This document shows, in pieces, positions 415 to 34,655 of a DNA stretch of 64,000 bases (the stretch's first letter is position 1; every line of letters starts with the position of its first letter). Position numbers and translations under genes: made by a program. The stretch lies in NCBI RefSeq assembly GCF_000003815.2, contig NC_049983.1, forward strand, positions 14,362,273 through 14,426,272, read 5' to 3'. A model generated the notes under the pieces. That model ran no database searches. It saw only the letters and a list, made by a program, of their open reading frames with translations, and had not been told where the DNA came from. This DNA comes from Branchiostoma floridae. Its lineage: Eukaryota; Chordata; Leptocardii; Amphioxiformes; Branchiostomatidae.

Positions 415-3400
415 ATTCCCCAACGAGGCGTCGGTCCACAAAAAGCCACAGAGCTCCACAGGCTCCAACCCAAGTACAGGCACCAACACAGAGGACAGCT
501 ATCAGTGAACCACAGGCACCACAAAATGTTGGCATAGAGAGAATGGGTAATATAGCCTGCTATCGCTTACACCAAGGAGGTTGAAAAGTTCAACCTCCTT
601 GCTTACACTCATTTGTGTTGACATCACTATACCAACATGGCACTTCGCCTTTAGTATGGTTGTTCGTCATTTTGCTTGGAACTTTAGAACATTTGATGAA
701 CTTGGCTTGGAAATTTGGTACGTCTATGCTGTATGCAGCCAGAGACAACTACCAAAGCTTTTGGTTTACAATAAACATGTTGCTTTGAATGTATCACAGT
801 TACCTTTGTTAGGCTTGATTATTGTCTATATCTGATAAGATAATCCTTTTCCTGTCTTCCTTCCATGAAAAGCTCACATGCAGAAATTTGAGATATACCA
901 GGACACATCAGCAAAAGTGGTCACTACAGATGCCTCTTCCCAGACGGAACCCTTGAACGACAAAAGATCAGAGGAAACCCATATACCTGAAAACATTGGT
1001 TCAGAACTTGTGGAACTTGTTCGAGTTAAGACAGACGTGAGTTTCCAAAAGTCTAGAATAGCTGTCTCCTCCATCTTGAACCACATAAAGGACAGAGTGC
1101 CTGAACTAGAAAGTGCAATGGAGGACATTCTGAGACAAGTCAACTCCAGTAAGGTAAGAGTCACTTTGATTGCATTTGATATTGGACAACAACATTATTA
1201 CTAAATATGAATGACCTCGAGATAAGAAGGACAATAGAGCAGATAAGAGATGGGTTGCAGATGGAAGGGAGACAAACAAGAAACTGTAAAGGCAATGACA
1301 ACCATACTATGCACTGACATGCTGCAATGATAATGAAGATGATAAATATGATTAAAGTTTTGGACATGATAATCTTTGAATAATGATAATCCTGTTCAAG
1401 ACAGAAAGAAATCCTAACAAAGGGAAGGAGTACATGAGTATGTGCCATTTCTGTATACAAACTGCTTCTAATTTAAACAGTGATTTGCATATCTTTTAAA
1501 TTTGTGACACACCTTTGATATTCTTTGTTAGTCAACCACATGGAATGCCTGATTTGTCATTGTTTTTTGTCTGATAAATGAATGATGTTATCCATAATGC
1601 TACATTGCCTTTTCCTCTATGTCAGTTACACACAGTGAAGTCTGGTGATGGTACCCAGGACAGTGAACGTCTGGAGGTGATCTTTAGTGAGATGAGCAGT
1701 GTGAAGGACGACTCCCAGCAGAGGAGCTGGCACCTGTACGAGGACCAGTCCATCATACTGGAGTACCTGGAGGAACTCATGTCTATACTGGTATGTGATG
1801 GTTATGATATACATTCTTCTGTGCAGATCCTTGTCTATACAATGTACTGGTACCTTGGGGAGGTTCTGCTAAACCAGGCTTAGGCTTGCACTTTTGTGGG
1901 TGTGGCCTTTAGACCACAAAGTAAAAGCAAAATTGTTAGATATTGGAACCCACATATCACATTGCATGTGTATTATACAAGTACATTTAGATATTGATTT
2001 TTTTTTTAGATATACAGTGCCACATTATATCATGTACATTACTGTCTCTCAAGTTATGCCTAAGTTGGGTGTGTCTGTTAAAGGAAAATGCCATGCCTGC
2101 AGTCTGTAGAAAGGCAGTCCAACGGGACAACTATGAGGTTCTACACAACATGGTGCAATACTACCAAATGGTATGACACTAGTCTAAGATTTTTTACTAT
2201 CGGCACTTTAAAACCTGACAAGCAATAGATTGCTAGACACCCCAAATGTTAGAAAGAAGATGTACAATGTTCATCAGTGTTTTTTGTACTTTTGTGAAGT
2301 TTAGGCATCCAGGAATGAACAATAGAAAATTAAGAAATAAAGTAAAGGTCATCATCTTTGCCCCATGTCAGTGTTTGCTGAGATGGGCCATTATTGTTCT
2401 CCCTAGTTTTTTATCTGCTGCTGTCTGTTGCATCCTTTCCCAAGTGCATCCCTTCTCAGCAAACTCTCGCTCCACATGTCATCGATTCTTGAGTATTGTA
2501 GATCCATTGTATATATTTCATGTATCTCTTGTTGCGACGTGTACTGAACCCAGTGGGTATGTATGTACAATAAAGGTCTTCATTCATTCATGATATTGCT
2601 TGATTCCCCCTCTTTCTTCTTCCTACTGGGCACTAGTAAATAAAGATACCTTCCAACGAGAGTTTGTATCCCCACAGGAACACAGACTGCCCATCCGGCT
2701 GGCCCTGCTGCAGGTGTTTGCTGGACTATGTGGGCTGGAGAGGGAGGTGGTCTCCTCCCTGGTGTGCTCCATCCTGCCGATGGAACTGGCTAGAGACATG
2801 CAGGACAGTGTGGAAGGTACGGAACGGAACATGACAGCTTTTAGTTTAAGCTGCCTCATTGTGTCATGCACGTGTATGTGTTGTACATTTTTATACATTT
2901 GCTCAACCAAATTTCAGGTAAAGTGGAATGAATGTATGTGCTGTTTTAACATTTTTTCTCAGTTAGCATATGTTTAAGAAATCACTTTTGTCAAATCAAT
3001 TTCAAAAAACATTTTGGGGAGGTTATTCATTAGACCTGCGAAAATGATTTCTTGCTCAGATTATAAGTTGAAGAACTTAATGATAATAATAGAATATGTT
3101 TCATTTTCACGTGTTTATGTATTACTGCATTATAGCATTGCAGAAACTCCAATACTCAGCATTGCTGCTGACCATGCTGTTCTCTACAGGGGAGACCATA
3201 CCTGTTCACCATTATGGTTAGTCTTTCTCTGTTTGTAGGGGTTTTCTTGAATTGGAGAGAGTTACATGGTGGCTACCATTCATGGTGTACTTCAAGTACA
3301 CTGGCTACTGTAGTGCTTCTAAAACTTTGTTCACCATATGGTAAGAAGGATATCCAATGTATTTGCCAAGATTCATCAATGCATGACGGTTCTGGTAGAT

Positions 3401-17807: not shown

Positions 17808-20800
17808 CTACAGTTCTGTCTCCCTGTCCCTGGTGACAACCCTCTTCCTTTGCTGTGCCAGAGGAAACAGCCTTCCTTCTAACAAAGACACCCTCACAAA
17901 AGAAGCAACATCAGAGTAAACCGAGACCATGTCTCTACTGTGGATGACCACAGCAGCCTGAAACACAGGCAGAGTCTGTGGGAAGGTTGGTGGTACTGAC
18001 TCAGAGGTGGATGGAGTCTGTGGGAAGGTTGAAGCAGTATCAGACAGCCCCAGTAGTCCTCTCATCACACTGTTCTGTAGAAGGTCAGTCAGGCAGCCTG
18101 CACACACCCCAGCTACCACCTGTATGCCTGCAACAAATGGTTCAAATGTGTCAAACAAATACAGAATTTGGTGGCTAGCTCATAATATTATCAATGTTAT
18201 TCCAACATAGGATCTGAATGGAGATTATGACAGATACAAAATGTACATGTACACTCTACTATTAGGACAACAAACATTCTTCAGATCATATTGTGTTTCT
18301 CTACCTGTAAGTCTGATGGCCTGGAGTGCAGTAACCTCCTCCTGTGTCTGTACTTCATCCACTATGATGCAGTCAGGGGAGTGGTTCCTTGCAGCTGTCT
18401 GCAGCTGGGACACCTGATCACACCTGTTATGCACCTGCATTAACAAAAAACATATCCTTTAACAACTATGCCATACAAGAAAATGTGTTGGGAATCATCT
18501 TAGATAGCTTAACTTCCTTACTGCTCCTAAAGTGTCACACCACAATACCTAATAAATGACAGGATTGTTGACCTCACCTGAACCCTCCTGGCACCTCCTA
18601 TACCTGGATGTGGGATATCATCTCCACCAGCAATCTGAAAATATACACAGGATTGTTACAGCGTATTTGATGACAATTACTGGACTTAATTTCTCATATC
18701 CCAATGGCAGTTTCTGTATTATGTCAAAACTCTATCCATCTATCCATTGCTTCACAATTATGAAGTCACCTGAATCCAATTCTCCTGTGCGTTACAAGTG
18801 TGTATGCCAAATTCAACTGAATAGTCTGAGCAAGGCAGCTACATAGTTAACAGAATGGATTTGACACATTTTGCACCATTGTCCAAGCCTACCTCCTTCA
18901 GTGTGTCCACCACAATGACCCTCCTGTAGCAGACATCGCTCAGTACGCGGGCCCACTCCCTCAGTAGGGTGGTCCTCCCACTGCAGGGGCATCCCATGAT
19001 GAGTGTGGAGGTGCCTGATGTCACCACGTCCCACAACAGGTCCAGACAGCCAGGCACTGCCTGACCTCTTCTCAGGGTCAGCCCAACTACCTCACCTGAA
19101 CTGTTCTTCAGTGTGCTGCATAAAGGGTTAGATATATTGGTCATTTGATTACATTTTGTCTATACATTAAGTCTATGTGTATGTCTAAACTTGTGACATT
19201 GAAAATTACAGTCCTTGGTATAGCTAATTTCTACATACAGAAGAAGCTGGTTGGACCAAGTGCAGACATGTGCATGGTGCTGAAATTAAAGCTGTTGTTG
19301 ACTTAACATTTGGTCATTGGTCTTCAAGTGATGGCAAGGGATGGTTTGAGTCTATCATGTCTCAAATCTGCCAAGCACATCAGGCCTTCTCTTCTCTGTA
19401 AATCTAAAAATATCTAAATATCATTTCAAACCTACAATTACTAAGGTCTTAGTCTTGGATGCATGGTCGGACATCGTTAATGGCACCTCATATGAGAATG
19501 AACTGAACTGAACTGAACTTAATCAAGTTTACCAAAAGATACCAGCATTGAACAATATGGCTATTGATAGAAATTTGAACATATGCACCTTATCCAGTGC
19601 AGTGTACCCTTAAGTAGAACTCTCCCCTGACCAATGGCAGACCTCTCCAGGGGCAGGCCAAACAGGATGGTTTCTAAGGTTTCTCTGGTCAGTGTCTGGT
19701 CACTCAGTCTGGTGGTGGCCAGGAGGCATGGACTGTCTGGGTTGTAATACCTGGGGAACCATTCAAGCTAAATTACCATTCAGTGGGAATTTCAAGTGTA
19801 GGACTGGTACAATTGAACATTATCTGGCACTTAAAATCACTTACAAGCTGCTTTTGTTTTGGTAATGAAAATCCAACCTTGCAACTGGAATCCTCCCAAT
19901 ATCTATCTCCACTTCCACCAGGTTATCCTGGATGGGACTGAGGTTGTCCTTGAACATGGGCAGCAGCGATGTGAAGTCATCAGGTTGTCCAGTAGGGTTG
20001 GCACCTGGTACAACACTTTCCATTGGGACATTAGTTGAAAGATGCTGCATGTCCTGTGTAATAATGACAAAAAATGGTTGTTATATACCTGGCAAGGTGT
20101 ATTGATAGACCTGGACATTCTATCAAACCTTCTAACAAGCTGTAATTAACTAGGTCCCAGGGTGACAATTTCTTTAAAACTAAGAGAACATAGATCATGA
20201 CAAGACATATTTTGCTTGTTTGCTTCCTTCTTTCTTTGGTCAAGTAACTAAAAGAATACAGAAAATGTCATTGGAACACTTTAATAGATGAATACACAAC
20301 AAAATTCATGTACTGTACCTGCTCCCCAGAGTTTACCCAGACACGTGTGCCATCTTCTCCCACCAGTAGGTGCAGGGGTCTGCGGTGTACTGGTGCTGAT
20401 GTGGTCCTGGCTTGTGTTTCTTCCTGGGTAACAGAGACCTGATCTATCCTAAATGTTTGGCCATGGTGATGGTGAAGGAAACTTAACAACCCTCCTCTGT
20501 GCTTGATACATTCTTGCTTATCCTCACCAAGCAGATTTATATACCCCTGAAGTGCACTGAAAGAAATCTCTCCACATCTCTGTATCAGGTCAAAAATCAG
20601 CTCTGATGTTTCTCTCTCCACATCGACCTGTTCTTCTTCTTCATCTGGATCCTGATGGTTTTCTACTGCATTAATTTGATCCACAGTCTGTTTCATATTA
20701 ATGTCATCTGATGCAGATGGATCAAACAAATGATGGCAACTGTTGCTTGAGAAATCTTGCAATAGGAAAGTGTCTTTGTCATTGGTAGCAACCTCATTTC

Positions 20801-22115
20801 CTTCTTGTGACAGATCTGGAGCTGAGCCAGTGCTGGCAATCTGATCTGTTTTCTCTTGTTCCTTTGAATTTGAAGTGCTGTTTGTTGCCACCAATTTTTC
20901 TTTTCCTTGATCGGCCTGTTTCTGCTTTGCTTTGCAACTTATTTGTTGCAGCTGGACATTGCCTTTTTTACTAACACTAAATACATCTGGATGGCTTTTC
21001 AATAATTTTTTTACCTCATCCTCTTTAGTGCCTACAGCCCGTTTAACTTCTTTCCTGCACTGGTTGATATGTCCAAAGAGCCTTTCCATGGGCATACTTC
21101 CCTTCACTTGCAAGACACCCTTAAAATGTTCCACTCCTTCCTGTAACAGTTCCTTGTCCTTGTTCATCTTGGGCTGTTCTGACTTTTTACGTGGAACTTC
21201 CACAGCCACTTCTGTAGTGACGTTAGTTGTTTTAGTTTTTCCACCTGAACATGCAAGGGCCGATGCAGCTTGTTTGGTCTTTGTCTTAATCAAACTCACT
21301 GTTCCACTGTCCTCTACTCTGAATGTGTTTGGATATCCCTTCAGGAATGTCTCAACATCAGATGGGCTTCCACCTACAAACCAAAGAATTTCATACTTGT
21401 GCTTGAAACCACTGATATGGCCACTCAGATTGCTGACAGGTAACTTCCCTTTTGATTGCAAGACTGACTTAAACTGCTGCATAGCCTCCTGTTGTACTGT
21501 GCTTATATGAAACACAACATCATCATCGTCAATGAGAAAGGTGTCAGGATTTTCTACCAGAAATTCAGTGACACTTTCCTCATCTTTCCCCACAAATGAT
21601 CTCACCTCTGGTCTTAACCCCTGCACATATCGGAACAAAGCTTTGAGTTTCTTTGGTCCCTCCCTCTTCAGAACTTCTGCAATAGATTTGATGCCATCTT
21701 CCCTGAGTTTGGCAGTTTGGTGAACATTGTCAGCAGCATCTAGGCTTTTGTTCTTCTCCTTACCTCCCTCTGCTTCCTCAACTTCACCCACTCTCTGCTC
21801 CTGTTGCCTTACTTTCTCACTGCTGTCTGATGTTGGTTGAACTTTATGGTGACTTTGCGGTGACTGTGTCTGAGGTGAGGATTTTGATTTCACTTTAGGT
21901 TTCATCTGTGCAGGAAATACTTTACCCCCCTCAACCCAAAAGATAGCTGGATGTTTCTGTAAGAAACTGCACAGAGCTTCTTCATTGTCAAACTGTATGA
22001 GTTCATCCTTACTGTCCAAGTTTTCCAGGTAGTCGAGCACCCTTGACAGTTCCAGTGGATATCCCAGCTCCACAACTGCCTTCAGGGCTGTTGTTGCTGT
22101 TTTGAGGTCATTCAT
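17808..22115 (-). CDS. Winged-helix array / SpoIIIAA-Ycf45-type ATPase, copy 1 (divergent Walker A)
   Basis: Seven coding exons (20319-22115, 19878-20053, 19589-19750, 18893-19115, 18578-18634, 18305-18434, 17808-18127) join in phase to 954 aa. The ATG lies 4 bases after a CAG acceptor, so a 5' UTR exon exists upstream. Residues 1-599 (one exon) hold about five repeated winged-helix-like units (about 1-71, 136-204, 206-276, 322-390, 500-562), each ending in a pattern like FLxxxPxxFxVxxxxxV. Charged, Ser/Gln-rich linkers separate them. Residues 600-954 align by eye with SpoIIIAA/Ycf45 ATPases: LVEVEIDIGRIPVAR, GEVVGLTLRRGQAVPG, a P-loop at 753-761, GGDDIPHPGIGGARRVQ (789-805), Walker B CIIVDEVQ (827-834) and a QVVAGVCAG strand. 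The P-loop reads GCPCSGRTT, with Arg759 where Lys is expected, and the family's VDTxNE reads VDTLKE. ATP hydrolysis may therefore be lost. Function in animals is unknown to me. The winged helices suggest nucleic-acid or protein binding (inference). Confidence 0.85.
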
Positions 22116-23370: not shown

Positions 23371-23855
23371 GGTTCCGCACTGGTGTTCCAGTGCTGAATC
23401 AATGGGTCGAATCGGCCTCAGCACTAGTTTTCCAGTGCTGAAGAAACGTCAGCACTGGTTTTCCAGTGCTGAACGGCCTTGTTCCAGTGCTGAAGCTCCC
23501 TCAACACTGGAATTCCAGTGCTGAACCCAATGCGAGCACTGGATTTCCAGTGCTGAACTTCTCCGAGCACTGGTTTTCCAGTGCTGAACTGCCTTCAGCA
23601 CTCGGGTACCAGTGCTGAACTCATGGCGGAGAGGCGGCGAGCCAGTTAAAAGGTCATTCAGCACTGGTTACCCAGTGCTGAAACCGCCGTCAGCACTGGA
23701 ACCGAGTGCTGATATACAAAAGTAACGGGTTCCGCACTGGATTTACCAGTGCTCGGGAACTTTTCAGCACTGGAAGACCAGTGCTGTAAAAACTTCAGCT
23801 CTGGGCTTCCAGTGCTGACGTTTATAAAGCACTGGAACGTTCCAGCGCTGAATAC
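23371..23855. repeat. Left palindrome array (CAGCACTGG-N4-CCAGTGCTG)
   Basis: About fourteen units of an imperfect palindrome, typically TCAGCACTGG-NNNN-CCAGTGCTGA, are spaced by 5-30 non-repeated bases. The centre (TTTT, ATTT, GTGT, AATT and so on) varies between units while the arms stay nearly constant. This array is part of the 23351-25129 transposon. The terminal motif TATACAAAAGTAACGGGTTC recurs internally at about 23713-23732. Confidence 0.85.
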
Positions 23856-23928
23856 GTGTACCAGGTGTCTGTACGGCTGTCTGAGTTATTTCCTTTAGAC
23901 TTAGATATATCTGTGCGTGTTAGGATAC

Positions 23929-24655
23929 TAGGTAGTTACAGGTGGACGACACACTCTGCTTGTGCGGCAAAGTAGCAACATTTAAAAAACAATAGGTAGT
24001 CAGAGGTAGACAACTCATAGGTGCTCTATCTGTGTTTTAAAGAGATCGCTTGTTTTTTTACAAAGAATAGGTAGTTACAGGTGGACGACACACTCTGCTT
24101 GTGCGGCAAAGTAGCAACATTTAAAAAACAATAGGTAGTCAGAGGTAGACAACTCATAGGTGCTCTATCTGTGTTTTAAAGAGATCGCTTGTTTTTTTAC
24201 AAAGAATAGGTAGTTACAGGTGGACGACACACTCTGCTTGTGCGGCAAAGTAGCAACATTTAAAAAACAATAGGTAGTCAGAGGTAGACAACTCATAGGT
24301 GCTCTATCTGTGTTTTAAAGAGATCGCTTGTTTTTTTACAAAGAATAGGTAGTTACAGGTGGACGACACACTCTGCTTGTGCGGCAAAGTAGCATCATTT
24401 AAAAACAATAGGTAGTCAGAGGTAGACAACTCATAGGTGCTGTATCTGTGTTTTAAAGAGATCGCTTGTTTTTTTTACAAAGAGTGGGTAGTTACAGGTG
24501 GACGACACATTCTGCTTGTGCGGCAAAGTAGCATCATTTAAAAAACAGTAGGTAGTCAGAGTTAGACAACTCGTAGGTGCTCTATCTGTGCGGTAAAGAG
24601 ATTGCTTGTTTTTTTTTACAAAGAATAGCTAGTTACAGGTGGACGAAACATTCTG
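23929..24655. repeat. 139-bp tandem repeat, about five copies
   Basis: The motif TAGGTAGTTACAGGTGGACG starts at 23929, 24068, 24207, 24346, 24485 and (variant) 24626, giving a 139-bp period. The first three units are almost identical and the last two carry more changes. It lies in the centre of the 23351-25129 transposon. Confidence 0.92.
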
Positions 24656-24834
24656 AGTAATGGACCATGTTTATGACTCGAGCTGCGGTAGGTGGTATAC
24701 CACAGTATACAACAGTTGTTTTGAGAAGTTAGTAACGTGATTGAAGACGTTTTAGACAGGTTAATTTCGTTATAATTAATTGTAACCGCGGCTCATGCCG
24801 CCTTGAGTCGTGTCGCTACTTTAGAGTCGGCGGC

Positions 24835-25105
24835 TTCAGCACTCGGTTTCCAGTGCGGAGTATTTGTCAGCACTGGATTTCCAGAGCTAGAACGTCCTCA
24901 GCACTGGAAATCCAGTGCTGATTGTAGTCTCAGCACTCGGTTTCCAGTGCTGACAGGAGGGCTTGCAGTGCTGAAGCTGCCTCAGCACTGGATTTCCAGT
25001 GCTGAAGCTGCCTCAGCACTGGATTTCCAGTGCTGAAGCTGCCTCAGCACTGGACTTCCAGTGCTGACGACCACTTCAGCACTGGTGTTCCAGTGCTGAC
25101 AGAGG
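24835..25105. repeat. Right palindrome array (CAGCACTGG-N4-CCAGTGCTG)
   Basis: About eight units of the same palindrome as in the left array, several in exact tandem (TCAGCACTGGATTTCCAGTG repeated with the spacer AAGCTGCC). Together the two arrays flank the 139-bp repeat symmetrically. Confidence 0.85.
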
Positions 25106-26410
25106 AGACCGTTACTTTTGTATATTTGCCCTAACGTTACCTCCTGTAGTGTCCGTAACCCCCCAGTTGTGTCCCTACTGTGACCTGTAATGTCCGCCCA
25201 CCCCCCACCCCCTATTAGTGTCAGTTCCCCCGTTAGTAACAATAAAAATTAAAATGTCTTACTAGTTCATACCGGAAAGATAATTGCAAACAGAGTAGAC
25301 GTAGACCCGTGGCATACATAACTGTTAATTGTATACTGGACATTAAGTCCATACGACTTACGTGCACACTCACATACCCAGCATACCCAACTGTTACCTT
25401 AGTTGTCATGGACAGTTAACTCTAGGAATCGAATGTAACGCGGAGGTAAAAATCATATCGCACCTGTATGAGAAACTTGGTGACCCCGCTGTCACCCCTC
25501 ACGCCGGAAGAGATATTCCATTATTACGCAGGGTCTATTATTTCATAATAACGCTATTATCAGATTTTTAACTATGACGCAGTTAAATCTATTTGACCAA
25601 AGCTACTTTTACTACGTCTAATCGATATAAACTTGGTTTGCCATGTTTTTCTCTGCAAATATTATTCACAAGAACGTTAGTAAACGTTAATTCCACCCCT
25701 AAAAAAAGTAGTGCGCGCGTCCAAATATGTTATTTACACATGTCAATGAGGACCCCTAGCGGTCCAAGTTACTTTTGCATATTTTTTGCCTCTGCTTGAT
25801 GCGGGTTTGCCTGTAATTATATTTTTGACCGTTTGGTGGCGCCTTTGTGCCATGTGCTGGACTCGGCCAGAAACCGAAATGACCTGGTTTCTGACCATGA
25901 CAATAATAACAAGTTAACTTAGTTACTTTAATGGTGCTGAAATGTTATCAAATACATAATAGTTTGGGATGTATAGTAAATACAATATGCTTCAATTTTT
26001 TTTCTGTCCATATTTCAGGATAGTGTTCATCTGTAACACCAAGGAGCTTTTATTAAACACTCAAAAAAGTAATTACGGTTCAGAACTCATTTATTTGTCA
26101 TTACAATTCGACCTTTCAGCCTTAAATGACATGGAAATCATGATATCTGATAACTTTATACAATAAAAAAATTCTGAAAAATATAATGAAATCAACAATC
26201 TTAGAGCAAAAAGTAATGTCTTCTCCGCAAAAGTTGTCAGCTTGCTCATAATCATTTCGAGGAATAGAGGAGGTATTTCCTGTACTTGGAAAGACAACTA
26301 AGCATAGCATCTGAGTTGCTCCTCATGTAATCCAACTAGTACAAAATCAAATGTACTACTAGTACATACAAATAAGTCAGCTTGGGATACACTTCTAGTC
26401 ATTCAACAAT

Positions 26411-27506: not shown

Positions 27507-30500
27507 CTACAGTAGTTCTGTGTCCCTGTCCTTGGTCACAACCCTCTTCCTTTGCTGTGCCAGAGGAAACCTTCCTTCTAATAATGACACCCTCACAAAA
27601 GAAGCCACATCAGAGTAAACGGACACCATGTCTCTACTGTGGATGACCACAGCAGCCTGAAACACAGGCAAAGTCTCCGGAAAGGTCCCACCAAGTGGTG
27701 ATGAGGTGGATGCAGCTGGACCTGACAGCCCCAGGAGTCCTCTCATCACACTGTTGTGTAGAAGGTCAGGCAGACAGCCTGCACACACACCAGCTACCAC
27801 CTGGATGCCTGCAACAAAGGGTTCAAATGTGTTACACAAGTACAGACTTATGTTTTACGTGACATTGTGAAGTTTCAGAAGGATTGAACTAAAAGTTGAT
27901 GAGTTCAGTCAGTGTTTATACCCCCCCTCACATTAGGCGCAATTCGATCGGACAACGAGTCTTCGACCTCTTATTTATGAGGAGGCATGACTCTGATGCC
28001 GACGAAGAAACGGCAGAGTTCCCACCTTCCCGTCCAGGTCATGCCTCCTCGTAATTTAGAGCTCGCACACTCGTCGTCCGATCGAATCGCGCCTAATGTG
28101 AGGGGGGTATAAGGAATACTGAAAAGAATTAGATCCATTTTTTTCCACCCTGGGACATTTGGGGAATGCCAGCATGCCAACACTCTATAGTATCAGGACA
28201 AACATTCTTCAAATCATGTTTCTCTACCTGTAAGTCTGATGGCCTGGAGCGCAGTAACCTCCTCCTGTGTCTGTACTTCATCCACTATGATGCAGTCAGG
28301 GGAGTGGTTCCTCGCAGCTGTCTGCAGCTGGAACACCTGATCACACCTGTTATGCACCTAGAGGCATGAACAACATCTCCTTTAGCATTGATTTCAAACA
28401 AGAAAATGTGTTGGCCTAAGAAAATTGCTTGTAAAGAGCTAAACATGCATGCTTTATTTGAATTGTTAGACATCTATGTACACACACAGATTTACATTTA
28501 TCCTGTTTATGATTGGACACAAACATGACACCATTCACCTGAACCCTCCTGGCACCTCCTATACCTGGATGTGGGATGTCGTCTCCACCAGCAATCTGAA
28601 AATACACAGGAGATTTGTCAGGGCAATAAAAGTACATTGTGTAGCCAAGTATTATGCAATACTATCTGCATCTGTACAGCCAGTACAATTGCACTTCAGC
28701 ATGACTCACAAGGTATCTGGTAAAATTACATGTAACAAAATAAAGTTAATTTCAGCATTCTGTTGAAAGTCTGATTGTTTCAAGTGTGTCTGCCCTATTT
28801 AATCTGAGCAAGGCAGCTACATAGTTACAATAGTCATTTTTCACCACTGTTCAATGCCTACCTCATTCAGTGTGTCCACCACAATGACCCTCCTGTAGTT
28901 AGTATACAATAATAGTCATTTTTCACCATTGTCCAATGCCTACCTCATTCCGTGTGTCCACCACAATGACCCTCCTGTAGCAGACATCGCTCAGTACGCG
29001 GGCCCACTCCCTCAGCAGGGTGGTCTTCCCACTGCAGGGGCGTCCCATGATGAGTGTGGAGGTGCCTGATGTCACCACGTCCCACAACAGGTCCAGACAG
29101 CCAGGCACTGCCTGACCTCTTCTCAGGGTCAGCCCAACTACTTCACCCAAACTGTTCTTCAGTGTACTGCACAAGTATATTGATTATTTGATGACATTTT
29201 TTCTAAACAGTAGATCTATGTGCATGCCTAAATTAATACAAAAACATCTGACATTGAAATTACAGTCCTTGGTATAGCTAATTTCTACATACAGAGGAAG
29301 ATAGTTGGACCCAAATCCAGCCATGTGCATGGTGCTGAAATTATGGCTGTTATTAACTTAAGTAAACATTTGGTCACTGGTCTTCAAGTGATGGCAAGGG
29401 AAGGTATGAGTCTATTATGTCACAATCTGCCAAGCACATCAGGCCTTCACATCTTAATATCATTTGAAACCTACAATTGCTAAGTCAGAGTCTTAGGCTT
29501 ATTCATTAATATATGCCTGTAGCCAAACATCATAACCTTTAACAAACAGGTGCTTGAAGTTACCTGACCCAGTGCAGTGTACCCCTAAGTAGAACTCTCC
29601 CCTGACCAATAGCAGACCTCTCCAAGGGAAGGCCAAATAGGATGGTTTCTAAGGTATCTCTGGTCAGTGTCTGGTCACTCAGTCTGGTAGCAGCCAGGAG
29701 AGATGGGGTCTGTGGATTGTAGAATCTGGGGAAGCAAAATTTTGTTGAAGTGTAGGACTGGTGAATGTAAGAAGAAAAATCAAAACTTCTTGCAGTTTGA
29801 ATGTTTCAAAATTTCAGCCTAAACCACAATCTGACCTGGCCACTGGAATCCTGCCAATGTCCATCTCCACTTCCACCAGGTTATCCTGGATGGGACTGAG
29901 GTTGTCCTTGAACATGGGCAGCAGCGATGTGAAGTCATCAGGTTGTCCAGGAGGGTTGGTGCCAGGTACAACAAACTCTGCTGGGCAAACAGCTGCAAGT
30001 GGCTGCATGTCCTGTGAAATAATCATAACAATGGCTGTTAAACTGGTAAATTATAATTTGATACTTAATTTACTTGTACACGGCAAACTTTATAAAAAAG
30101 CTGTGATAACAATGCAGTCTTTGTACTTTCTGCTATCATAATGCTGCATCATAAGTAAAGACTGAAAAACTGAAGGATGACCAATCATTTTTCAATACAA
30201 AAAAAGATAATTGAACATACATTTCAATGTAGGTATGGAAACATTTACCTGCTGCCCAGCATTTTCCCAGACATTTGCGCCACTTTCAGTCACAAGGTGG
30301 GGAGGCCATCCCTGTTCCATGTCTGGTTTACTCCAAGCCCATGTCATACCCTCTGTGCCCTGTAGACTTTGGCTTGAATCTGAAAAAATGTCAACTGGGC
30401 TGGGAGGCAAAGCATCTGTGTTCTCAGCCGGGCTGGTATGACTGTCCTGTGTGTCCGTCCTAACATCCTCTGTCTGAAAACCTCTGGATGATGAGGTCAG

Positions 30501-33500
30501 GTCAACATGTTGAGTGGCTGTTACCGTGGCTTGAGTTGAATGCATGTCTACAACTTCAGCAATATGTGTTGTGATGTGATCCACTACAGAGCTTGTTTCT
30601 GTATACACACCATCACTACTACTGCCAGCATTGGCTACATTGCTATTGACACTTGGAACAGTCATTGGATGCACTGTTGCAGTTGGGAGACCTGAACCAT
30701 CACAAACTGCCTGTTCTTGATTCATGCATTGTTCACCTAGCCCTGGAGTCTGGACAGGTGGTACAGGAGAGACATTACGTGTATGATTGGTAACTAGTGC
30801 AGCTGTCCTGAGGTCTGTATCTTCACCCTCTTCTGTGCTGTGGCTAGGTTTCAACAATGAAGTACCAGTGTCATGTCCTGCTTCTATGGTTGGTACATTA
30901 TGGTTCTTCTGGTTGCTTTCTGCATTACAAATATCAAGATCAGTTGATGTTTTCTCTGCTGGATACCCCGCCATTTTCACTTCCCCCTCAACTGTTGGTT
31001 GTGCAGGTGACAGTTGTTCTCCATTAGCACTGATGGTTACAACATCTTGTTCTGTCTCCTTCTTGGCAATCTGATCTGATCTGAACACCATCCTGCCCTT
31101 TGAACTACATTCTACAAGACAAACTGTACCCCTGGCATTGTCAACATGGAAAAGTGTAGGATACTGTTCCAAGACTTTACATGGGCCTCCTGTCTGTGAT
31201 GTGTACTTCTGTGCTTCTTTGGGAAGGTCATTAAAACATCCTACAAAACTTTCAAATGACATTTTAAGCTTCCAACTCAGCAGTCGGTGCCAGGCAAGTA
31301 CCGTGTCCACCTCTTCCTCCAGAACACATTGTTGCAGTACCTCCTTCAGAAGGTGACTTCCACATGTGGCTGTTGCTGCTCTAGCTTGAACCTCGGCAGG
31401 TGCAGCTTTCCCCATGCCATGTTTGACTTTGGACACCACCCAGGGGATCTGACTTTGGTCAGGAGCAGGCACAACATAGGCGACCACACAGTCCCCAACT
31501 TCGAGACAAGATGTGGCTTTTGTGGCATCTGTAAGGTCAAGCACAGCTTTCTTATCATCAGGAAGACAAAGCTGTGCAATATTCTTGTCAATCACACTGA
31601 CTTTTCCAATGGTACATTTTGCTCCCGGAGATGCCATACATTGACTGGAGCCCCCAATGAGCTCTGTTTGCCCAGCCAGTGAAGTAACACACCCATCCTG
31701 TACATGAAACATTTGTGGTTGGCTTTGCAAGAAGGACAGTAGTCCTCCCTTTTCTCGGAGGTAGAGAATTGCATCATGATTCAAGTACTTGATCCTAGAG
31801 CTAAGATCCTTCACCTGCAGTGGTGACGTTATTCTGAGGAATGAAGCCACAAATTTCATGAGAACATGACAGATCTCAGGTGGAGATCTTTCAATGGTTG
31901 CTGCAGGCAGGAAAGGCATGGGTGTTTGGAGGTTCACTTCATCTTTGTCAGCATCAACACATTTAGAAGACTTAAAAACTGCTGTAATGTTGGTTGCTGT
32001 CCACTTCATACTGGTCTCTGGTTCGCCATGTTCTGTGTCCACCAAAAGAATATCTCCTGGAGATAGATGGTCCTGTAGCCTGATGCAGTCAACCCCCATC
32101 CTCTCTCTGTACAACGTAATGTAGACAAATACTCTACTTCCATCTTCCAATATTGCATAACAACTGTTGTTACTCAACATCTTTTTAACCATTGCAGGGA
32201 CATTCATAGGTGGGAGTTCTTCAACCATATCTTGGTCATTCACATGAAATTCAGCTGGACATTTCTTCAGAAAAAGTCTCACTCCACTCAACTCAAATCT
32301 TTCATCTGGAAACATGGAGCTTAACTCTTCAACAAGCTGAACAAGATGCAAACATCCCTTCTTTGATAAAATGTCCTTCACTGCAGTTATGAATTTGTCT
32401 GAAATGTGTTTGGAAGAATCAGCCTTCTGATCAGAAGTATGTTGTTCATGAATATAAGGTAAAGATCTACATGTAGATGTGTCATCATCACTAGTTCCAT
32501 GGTTGTCTTTACAGTCTTCCTGTGGCTGTTGCAAGTGGCTAGGTTTTTCCTGAACCTCTTTGGCTTCATGAAGTCGTCCTTCACATATTGTGCTCCTGAC
32601 ATCTGGTGTACTTCCACCTAACTTGCTGAGAAGCTTTGGCTTTGGAAACATAGTTTTGGTTGATATAGCTAAAGTATCACAGCTTGCCCACCTTTGAGGT
32701 CTGCTTACGTTCCCACTTTTTGACAAACTGGTGCCCTTAAGGTACACAACCTGATTGGCATCCACTTTGAATATCTGTGGATGTTTCATGAAGAACTTTG
32801 TCAATCCTTCTTTACTGTTTCCAACATGCATCCTTATGTCTTCACCACAAGAACTGAAGCAACTACTGAGCACATGAGTGCTTGATGGCCCTTTCCTGGA
32901 CAACATTTCCTTAAAGTGAGCCAAAGCCTTTTGTTCACTCTGCAGCGGGTTAAGGTTTATCTTATGTTGATGTTGTTGTTGCTTGTTTGCTCTGCTACAT
33001 ACAAGATGTACAATCATCTTCTTGTCAATGTGAAAGACTTCCGGATACCCGAGTAGAAACTTTTTCACCTTGTCCGCTGTACAACCAATAGCCCATTTGA
33101 CTCGATCCCTACACTGGTTGACATGTCCCCATATGTTCTGAACAGGCATGCTTCCTTTTGACTCCAAGACTTGTTTAAAATGCCTGACTCCTTCAAGCTG
33201 AATATTCTCCTTGTTCTGGCTCGGTACTACTGCTGTTGATGAGGCACTTTTCCCCATCCCCAGTATGTTCTCTTGGGGACTTCTGAAAGGTGCATTTGTT
33301 TGTATCTTCTGGCCTTTCTCTACTACCATTGCATAAGTTCTGTTTTCTGTTACATGCTTGTTCCCCTGTGACTGGGCTGTAGTGGCAGAAATAAGACAAA
33401 CCATCCCCTCATCATCAGTACCGAACACCTCTGGAAAACTCTTCAAGAAATCCAGAACAGATGATGGGCTTCCACCAATCACCTTAAGCATAGGACCTAG

Positions 33501-34655
33501 ATACTTATATTGGCTACTGTGCCCACAGATGTGTTTAATGTGTAAACTACCCTTTGACTCCAATACCCTCTTGAAGTGCTGAACACCTTCCTCTTTGATG
33601 TCACTGACAAGATACACCATGCTGTCATTGATGACAAATATCTTAGAATGTTGCTCTAAGAATGTTTTTGGATCATTACTCTCAAAGAATGAGCTAACTT
33701 TTGGATCAAGGTGACACATGTATCTCACAAGTTCTACAACTTGTAGTGGTCCTTTCCTTTCCAAAGTGGCTGAGACAGCATTGATGCACTCTTGTATAAG
33801 TTTGGATGTAAGATGAACATCATCTTGACCATCAATGAAGAAATAAGCTGGAAATTTCAGGAACAGTGCTCTGGCTTTCTCTGGACCACCTCCTACTGCC
33901 TTTCTTACTTCCTCCCTGCACTGGTTTACATGGCCATGTATTCTACCAAGTGGCATGCTCCCTTTTTTCTCTAAAGCATTTACAATGTGTGCTGCCCCCT
34001 CTTCAAGAAGTGCCTCCACATCCTGAGTACATTCAACATCACTATCTTCTTCACTGCTTGAGATGTGAGGTTCAGGGATGGCTGCATTATCAGTCCTCCC
34101 ATTTGTGGCATCCTCATCACTGCTGGAAGACTGAGATGCTAATGACCCATTCAATTCTATGCTGCCATTGCTTGCGTCTGCACTGTCAATGTCCTCTTCC
34201 ATGCTAGAAGACTGTGAAACTGATGGACTTAATATATCATCATCATCACTACCTTCAATTGTAGGAGAAGGCTGTATGTGAATCAAATCATTGGAATCGA
34301 TGGCAAAAACTTGTTCCTCAACTACACCAATGGGGTGGTCTTGTTGCCTTCTCTCATCACTGCCATTTGACCCTGGCTGGACTATCGGTTGACTTTGAGG
34401 CAACCATGTTTTGTTTAGGCACCTCAACCCCCCTTTTGGTTTCATCTGTGCAGGGAAGACGTTGCTCCCATCAACCCAGAACATTGATGGAAACTTCTTC
34501 AAGAAACTGCACAGAGCTTCTTCATTGTCAAACTGTATGAGTTGATCCTTACTGTCCACGTTTTCTAAGTAGTTCAGCACCCTTGACAGTTCCAGTGGAT
34601 ATCCCAGCTCCACAACTGCCTTCAGGGCTGTTGTTGCTGTTTTGATGTCCTCCAT
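27507..34655 (-). CDS. Winged-helix array / SpoIIIAA-Ycf45-type ATPase, copy 2 (intact Walker A)
   Basis: Seven coding exons (30249-34655, 29836-30011, 29564-29725, 28944-29166, 28539-28595, 28228-28357, 27507-27808) join in phase to 1818 aa. The ATG again lies 4 bases after a CAG acceptor. Internal exon lengths (176, 162, 223, 57, 130) equal those of copy 1. The first exon (1469 codons) holds about nine winged-helix-like units with hydrophobic cores and endings such as FLKKFPSMFWVDG, FLKSFPEVFGTDD, FFMKHPQIFKVDA and VLEQYPTLFHVDN. It also has two short beta-rich segments (around CYAILEDGSRVFVYITLY and CLEVGDCVVAYVVPAP), acidic Ser-rich linkers and a low-complexity Thr/Ser/Glu tail. The ATPase part has Walker A GRPCSGKTT (Lys1629), VDTRNE, GGDDIPHPGIGGARRVQ and Walker B CIIVDEVQ, and ends with the family-like tail FQAAVVIHSRDMVSVYSDVA. 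SpoIIIAA/Ycf45 is known from Firmicutes and plastids/cyanobacteria. The animal role is unknown. The likeliest state is an active, probably oligomeric ATPase. Confidence 0.87.
27916..28112. mobile_element. Small MITE in last intron of ATPase copy 2
   Basis: A 197-bp inverted-repeat unit. The left end TTATACCCCCCCTCACATTA and the right end TAATGTGAGGGGGGTATAA are inverted copies. The arms extend about 75 bp (GGCGCRATTCGATCGGAC and beyond, including GAGGAGGCATGAC). The target duplication is unclear. Copy 1 of the gene lacks it. Confidence 0.8.
28829..28899 (-). pseudogene. Partial tandem duplicate of the 3' end of an ATPase exon
   Basis: Bases 28829-28899 repeat 28911-28981 at an 82-bp offset with few changes. 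They include the last about 38 bases of the P-loop exon (VIVVDTLNE) plus its GT donor and intron start. The fragment has no acceptor and no P-loop, so it is a dead exon piece in intron 4 of copy 2. It reads VDTLNE, between VDTRNE (copy 2) and VDTLKE (copy 1). Confidence 0.85.

Follow-up and report, generated by a model that had tools for sequence, protein, structure and literature searches.

What does an ATPase of the type found in cyanobacteria and plastids do in the nuclear genome of an animal, at the end of a long series of winged helices? The question is raised by gene A, which lies on the minus strand of a 64,000-nucleotide stretch of the Branchiostoma floridae genome (assembly GCF_000003815.2, contig NC_049983.1; the window hereafter), itself part of a 29.55-Mb contig. 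In this gene, an original prediction made from the letters alone had recognised a SpoIIIAA/Ycf45-type ATPase fused to a winged-helix array. As presented below, gene A is one of a pair, and the reading preferred here, for which the chances appear evenly balanced, is that the two nuclear genes encode proteins that bind RNA and carry a Ycf45-type ATPase at the C-terminus, assembling under nucleotide control into an oligomer in which one subunit is intact and the other impaired. The Ycf45-type ATPase is a relative of the secretion and pilus ATPases, namely the ATPase E of the type II secretion system, FlaI and PilT.

Two fused genes in tandem

Gene A consists of seven exons that splice in phase to 1818 amino acids (aa) and a stop codon, with a GT donor and an AG acceptor at all six introns (Table 1). 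Exon 1 alone contributes 1469 aa and ends at a phase-0 donor, while exons 2-7 make up the ATPase part. The exon structure originally proposed, with about 1469 residues from a single exon, was re-derived from the splice borders and the translation, in which the whole motif series quoted in the prediction could be found. In the Pfam database, exon 1 matches WH_Egal (PF23713, E 8e-72, eight stretches) as well as wHTH_TTC3 (PF24812, E 6.3e-14), whose best stretch (aa 923-990) overlaps one WH_Egal unit, and exons 2-7 match Spore_III_AA (PF19568, E 4.6e-14, 52.7 bits for a cut-off of 27).

A second gene, missed in the prediction and new here, occupies positions 17808-22115 of the window on the minus strand. 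This paralogue B encodes 954 aa with the same exons, intron phases and fusion as gene A. Exons 2-6 are equal in length in the two copies (176, 162, 223, 57 and 130 nucleotides), and the introns predicted to lie inside the ATPase are present in both, six GT/AG introns with the ATPase spread over exons 2-7. The array-ATPase junction is supported because paralogue B has an alike exon 1 end and exon 2 start (VWENAGQQ/DMQ in A, VWVNSGEQ/DMQ in B, the slash marking the exon border), in phase 0 in both cases, and the predicted fusion of array and ATPase is thereby upheld. PF19568 is above its cut-off in paralogue B too, and PF24812 goes unreported there by Pfam at E 0.01. Bacterial contamination is ruled out by the six GT/AG introns of each gene and their position inside the 29.55-Mb contig, as is a haplotype duplicate of one locus by the strong difference in exon 1 (1469 vs. 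599 aa).

In a search of the genome (513 Mb, 431 contigs), the ATPase protein gave 12 matches, all from the two places in the window, and no third copy was found. The PF19568 profile gave 0 matches, presumably because introns split the domain, which the protein search did find. The ATG of each gene stands four bases past a tttcag, because of which a 5' untranslated exon is likely in both. Between the two genes, at about 23400-25250 of the window, short repeats around CAGCACTGGAAA-CCAGTGCTGA were seen by eye.

The winged-helix array

A profile built from 14 hand-cut segments of the array, nine from A and five from B, was compared with solved structures and matched Drosophila Egalitarian (Egl; chain 9rvy_D) with an E of 1.1e-21, the next match being at E 0.2. 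The match falls into three stretches, corresponding to the domains ED1, ED2 and ED3. Together with the Pfam score on exon 1, it bears out the Egalitarian-like array of the original prediction and, as far as profile comparison goes, makes the fold relation to the Egl domains firm. According to a cryo-electron microscopy study of Egl-BicD published in 2026 (PMC13186709), the Egl domains are winged helices of the LOTUS-like kind, of which ED1 and ED2 recognise structured RNA by placing helix 2 in the minor groove of double-stranded RNA (dsRNA); the residues S127 and Q128 of ED2 touch RNA bases, and ED3 is not needed for RNA binding. As the repeats match ED1-ED3 and ED1/ED2 bind dsRNA, the array is read here as a putative binder of structured RNA. 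An assignment of ED1 His31 and Cys35 to the GHVNQC motif was dropped after reading the alignment of the profile with Egalitarian.

Where Egalitarian has three units and an exonuclease, gene A has eight or nine and an ATPase; no match to the 3'-5' exonuclease homology domain was found in gene A with Pfam, and the five PF01612 matches in the genome are all on other contigs than this gene. The genome search with WH_Egal, which went exon by exon and scored only the best candidates, a procedure that split domains may escape, returned 15 matches, eight of them above the cut-off and all eight in A or B. Winged helix 2 is probably one of the eight Pfam stretches. Between the winged helices of gene A, two stretches (about aa 818-897 and 1011-1081, window 31413-32204) look beta-rich by eye and have no convincing match in Pfam or among solved structures, aa 813-1186 giving noise. 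Elsewhere in the genome, a long open frame (positions 1420-3183 of locus L012) has a weak winged-helix start (E 0.135) and behind it, judged by eye, an apparent SAM domain.

The ATPase and its relatives

In a tblastn search of plasmids, 23 of 72,556 records matched the ATPase, with a Scytonema protein annotated as R3H at the top (37.6% identity over 85% of the query), followed by Thermus and Deinococcus plasmid ATPases. In GTDB genomes, at least 366 relatives were counted among the 593 candidate stretches examined. The best 80 of these, a sample leaning to the best query matches, are 36-41% identical to the ATPase and cyanobacterial by title or taxonomy in 73 cases, the remainder being four Chloroflexota, one Thermomicrobiales (the top match, at 41%), one rumen bacterium and one titled Bifidobacterium. 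When genomes were sampled from the phyla to which loci L042 and L049 belong, 74 of 78 and 77 of 81, respectively, contained PF19568. In a comparison with solved structures, the ATPase profile gave mainly matches confined to the P-loop, FlaI being the best of domain length.

For phylogeny, 151 of 161 alignment rows were kept, ten being dropped as partial matches. The first tree holds 41 rows, i.e. 36 representatives, three more and the pair, and includes four of the ten dropped rows (L180, L182-L184). A branch with 100/99 support groups the pair with the Ycf45-type ATPases, apart from one annotated SpoIIIAA of Bacillota (Pusillibacter) and five Deinococcota plasmid ATPases. This branch was repeated, with two Deinococcota rows outside, in a second tree omitting six long rows (L180, L182, L183, L184, L111 and L112). 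Both trees were flagged for long branches and the 41-row tree also for unsettled bootstrap, the branch of the pair being very long in each (8.8 and 10, respectively). The SpoIIIAA equivalog TIGR02858 matches gene A only partially, with 71.1 bits against a cut-off of 281.3. Since the tree separates them from SpoIIIAA and the TIGR02858 score is far below the cut-off, the ATPases of A and B are, on sequence criteria, Ycf45-type, and SpoIIIAA proper is ruled out despite the shared Pfam family. The double name given originally thus keeps its Ycf45 half, in agreement with the identity to the GTDB relatives, and loses the other. A cyanobacterial donor is only weakly disfavoured: the tree joining the pair to six cyanobacterial rows is 19 log units worse (p-AU 0.037, approximately unbiased test), a result weakened by the long branch and by the test having been named after the first tree had been seen.

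With cyanobacterial and plastid Ycf45, the ATPase part shares the NLVEV-MD-GR-P-AR and IAG-DIPHP-IG-ARR-QV blocks. It differs in having neither a C-terminal R3H or PTPase-named domain nor the TAHG block, in its N-terminal Egl-type array and in being encoded by a spliced nuclear gene. Scans of 12 relatives from bacteria or viruses, ten of them chosen by hand, showed the PTPase-named domain in nine and the nucleic-acid-binding R3H domain in five; the Thermus relative lacks both, and a contig end truncates one viral frame. No R3H or PTPase-named domain was found by Pfam in A or B, and none of the seven R3H matches in the genome is in the window. With R3H in five of the 12 relatives and an Egl-type array here, the theme in common would be a P-loop ATPase joined to modules that bind nucleic acids. 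The bacterial R3H-tailed proteins, the Scytonema one included, are presumably Ycf45, a name that we assign from their domain set and not from an annotation. A Ycf45-type ATPase is also part of SPD1 (seedling plastid development1), a nuclear protein of Arabidopsis. PMC6180158 gives the function of SPD1 as unknown.

The original prediction also had the ATPase taken up in an animal lineage, which, on comparisons made with bacterial, plasmid and viral sequences, is no more than a possibility: the trees do not fix the place of the pair inside the Ycf45 clade, and YCF45, with cyanobacterial ancestry and its pathway given as unknown, is listed in the extracts of PMC3087521 for Phytophthora ramorum and Naegleria gruberi, both of which lack plastids, while none is listed there for Monosiga, yeast or Dictyostelium. 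Besides, eight contigs filed as viral in IMG/VR (L106-L113) encode Ycf45-type ATPases 32-48% identical to that of gene A. On Deinococcota plasmids (L025, L181 and L183), a coupling-type gene of type IV secretion systems or a lytic transglycosylase gene is near the ATPase relative in three of the five stretches read, as if these plasmid ATPases were serving a conjugation system.

Active site and divergence of the two copies

Conservation was measured over 142 distinct Ycf45-type rows (L025 and L180-L184 being left out), and 125 columns reached 95% or more. In 70 of these, gene A carries the conserved residue; those retained include K1629 and T1630 in Walker A, D1652, E1656, H1665, R1672 and R1673, as well as D1701 and E1702. 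The Walker A lysine, present in 142/142 relatives, is an arginine in paralogue B, a loss that is seen in a single assembly and might reflect a single allele. Regarding the DTSNE box, the acidic residues are kept in gene A (DTRNE) and the asparagine is lost in paralogue B (DTLKE). The columns where one copy alone departs number three in B, i.e. this lysine, this asparagine and one alanine, and one in A, an aspartate. From these substitutions, the ATPase of paralogue B is predicted to be impaired.

Identity between the two copies is 67-85% over aligned intron bases and 87-98% over exons 2-7. The rate of synonymous differences (dS) is low in exons 4 and 6 (0.05 and 0.07), around which gene conversion may have lowered the divergence. 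Within intron 4 of gene A (window 28829-28898) is a 70-bp copy of positions 28911-28980, the end of exon 4 with its donor, which is 96% identical; it reads DTLNE, with the leucine of paralogue B and unlike gene A itself, a pattern suggestive of conversion or an unequal crossover.

Table 1. Exons and winged-helix units of gene A and exons of paralogue B (positions in the window; bits and E for WH_Egal).
Feature	Position	Strand	Description
Gene A exon 1	30249..34655	-	ATG to phase-0 donor; Egl-type winged-helix array
Gene A winged helix 1	34449..34622	-	aa 12-69; 24 bits, E 0.0265; alone below Pfam cut-off
Gene A winged helix 2	33801..33998	-	about aa 220-285; GHVNQC; hand-cut, not in genome-search list
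Gene A winged helix 3	33603..33791	-	aa 289-351; 31.6 bits
Gene A winged helix 4	33387..33584	-	aa 358-423; GHSSQY; 39.4 bits
Gene A winged helix 5	33000..33188	-	aa 490-552; GHVNQC; 45.9 bits
Gene A winged helix 6	32733..32933	-	aa 575-641; 64.6 bits, top WH_Egal match of genome search
Gene A winged helix 7	32223..32387	-	aa 757-811; 23.1 bits, alone below cut-off
Gene A winged helix 8	31683..31889	-	aa 923-991; 33.1 bits, also wHTH_TTC3
Gene A exon 2	29836..30011	-	ATPase start, LVEVEMDIGRIPVAR
Gene A exon 3	29564..29725	-	ATPase N-terminal region
Gene A exon 4	28944..29166	-	Walker A GRPCSGKTT and DTRNE box
Gene A exon 5	28539..28595	-	IAGGDDIPHPGIGGARRVQ
Gene A exon 6	28228..28357	-	Walker B CIIVDEVQ
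Gene A exon 7	27507..27808	-	GVCA in place of TAHG of relatives; family tail; stop
Paralogue B exon 1	20319..22115	-	599 aa; three WH_Egal stretches (Pfam), two more winged-helix-like (hand alignment only)
Paralogue B exon 2	19878..20053	-	ATPase
Paralogue B exon 3	19589..19750	-	ATPase
Paralogue B exon 4	18893..19115	-	GCPCSGRTT (Walker A lysine to arginine); DTLKE vs. DTRNE
Paralogue B exon 5	18578..18634	-	ATPase
Paralogue B exon 6	18305..18434	-	ATPase, Walker B
Paralogue B exon 7	17808..18127	-	ATPase tail, stop

Proposed mechanism and alternatives

In the mechanism proposed, the array would bind bulged or stem-loop RNA as ED1 and ED2 of Egalitarian do, and ATP binding would assemble the ATPase domains into a ring, which could then cluster or remodel the bound RNA-protein complex. 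Paralogue B would join mixed rings as a subunit unable to work normally, tuning A. The original prediction had put forward a nucleic-acid-guided ATPase as one possibility. A bolder version, which we consider unlikely, is that the Egl-type helices select structured RNAs for such a mixed ring of Ycf45-type ATPase and Walker-A-deficient paralogue, the whole being an undescribed animal machine for RNA remodelling or RNA surveillance.

In favour of the proposed mechanism are the match of the repeats to ED1-ED3, the near-invariant residues that gene A keeps, the R3H domain of some bacterial relatives, the retention of the fusion, of the exon 2-6 lengths and of the phases in both copies, and the presence in all relatives of the lysine that B has lost. 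Several observations weigh against it. On the RNA side, the base-contact positions of ED2 are kept in few of the 14 segments (S at S127 in four, Q at Q128 in four, both in one), because of which an RNA-contact chemistry like that of ED2 is only suggestive, and the net charge is negative in seven of the 14 winged-helix units measured. On the ATPase side, the TAHG block, which we take to be the His box of the secretion ATPases and whose histidine is present in 142/142 relatives, reads GVCA in both A and B, and gene A differs or has a gap in 55 of the 125 near-invariant columns. From the residues kept and lost, nucleotide binding is predicted for the ATPase of gene A, whereas its hydrolysis is in doubt, possibly weak or absent. 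Selection counts on both sides. In favour, the 348 aligned ATPase codons of A and B give a dS of 0.210 and a rate of non-synonymous differences (dN) of 0.061, i.e. a dN/dS of 0.29 (p 1.5e-8 in a Fisher test of synonymous against non-synonymous differences, with counts rounded), and the first 72 codons of the two genes, around winged helix 1, give 0.34. Against, a ratio from two sequences cannot tell which copy is under constraint, and exon 4, with the P-loop, exhibits no constraint of its own (ratio 0.59, 3 synonymous and 5 non-synonymous differences).

These same losses give some room, on the unlikely side of tentative, to a nucleotide switch or pseudo-ATPase, in which ATP would be bound for oligomerising and RNA scaffolding with no productive hydrolysis: TAHG is gone from A and B, the Walker A lysine and DTSNE asparagine from B, the near-invariant columns of A are extensively changed or missing and the branch is very long. 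Gene A nevertheless retains Walker A, the acidic residues and Walker B, and non-synonymous changes are fewer than synonymous ones between the copies. That the pair could be an innate-immune or transposon-control sensor, the array detecting foreign structured RNA and the ATPase oligomerising in response, fits the tandem duplication, the far-apart array lengths (1469 vs. 599 aa) and the dsRNA-binding role of such domains in Egalitarian (PMC13186709); this is improbable given the absence of any further effector domain in A or B in the Pfam scan and the finding of only two copies in the genome.

Winged helices serve many ligands, and those of the array might also bind DNA or proteins rather than RNA, making the gene a chromatin or scaffolding factor. 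The dispensability of Egl ED3 for RNA binding (PMC13186709) and the partial retention of the ED2 base-contact residues point that way, but the sole solved-structure match clearly above noise is the RNA-binding Egalitarian, and this alternative appears quite improbable. A gene-model artefact, in which the long exon and the ATPase exons would belong to separate adjacent genes, is scarcely credible in view of the phase-0 junction, alike in sequence, that A and B share.

Significance for the Ycf45 and Egalitarian families

In the literature searched, which excludes subscription papers and preprints where an earlier description is possible, no paper was found naming two of Ycf45, SpoIIIAA and Egalitarian together, none of 30 with ycf45 was titled on an animal (titles only being considered), and the Pfam names or accessions of these domains were found in no paper. 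In the Egalitarian/EXD1/LOTUS/amphioxus literature, PMC13186709 alone combined three of five terms. Among the cyanobacterial genomes encountered in this work, Ycf45 is frequent, and it is named in algal plastid genome papers, judging by their titles; PMC13139465 gives three ycf45 mutations, of which two disrupt the frame, for Synechocystis after evolution in fluctuating light.

With these genes, the Egl-type winged helices gain an additional architecture, and the pair with one impaired copy would constitute a natural experiment on whether hydrolysis matters. The fusion to domains whose RNA recognition has been solved in Egl-BicD (PMC13186709) provides a testable lead, namely that the Ycf45 family acts on structured RNA, and the locus raises the question of the route by which the nuclear genome of an animal acquired an ATPase of cyanobacterial type. 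If the mixed-ring reading were true, an animal machine for RNA remodelling or RNA surveillance would have been made out of a plastid/cyanobacterial-type ATPase.

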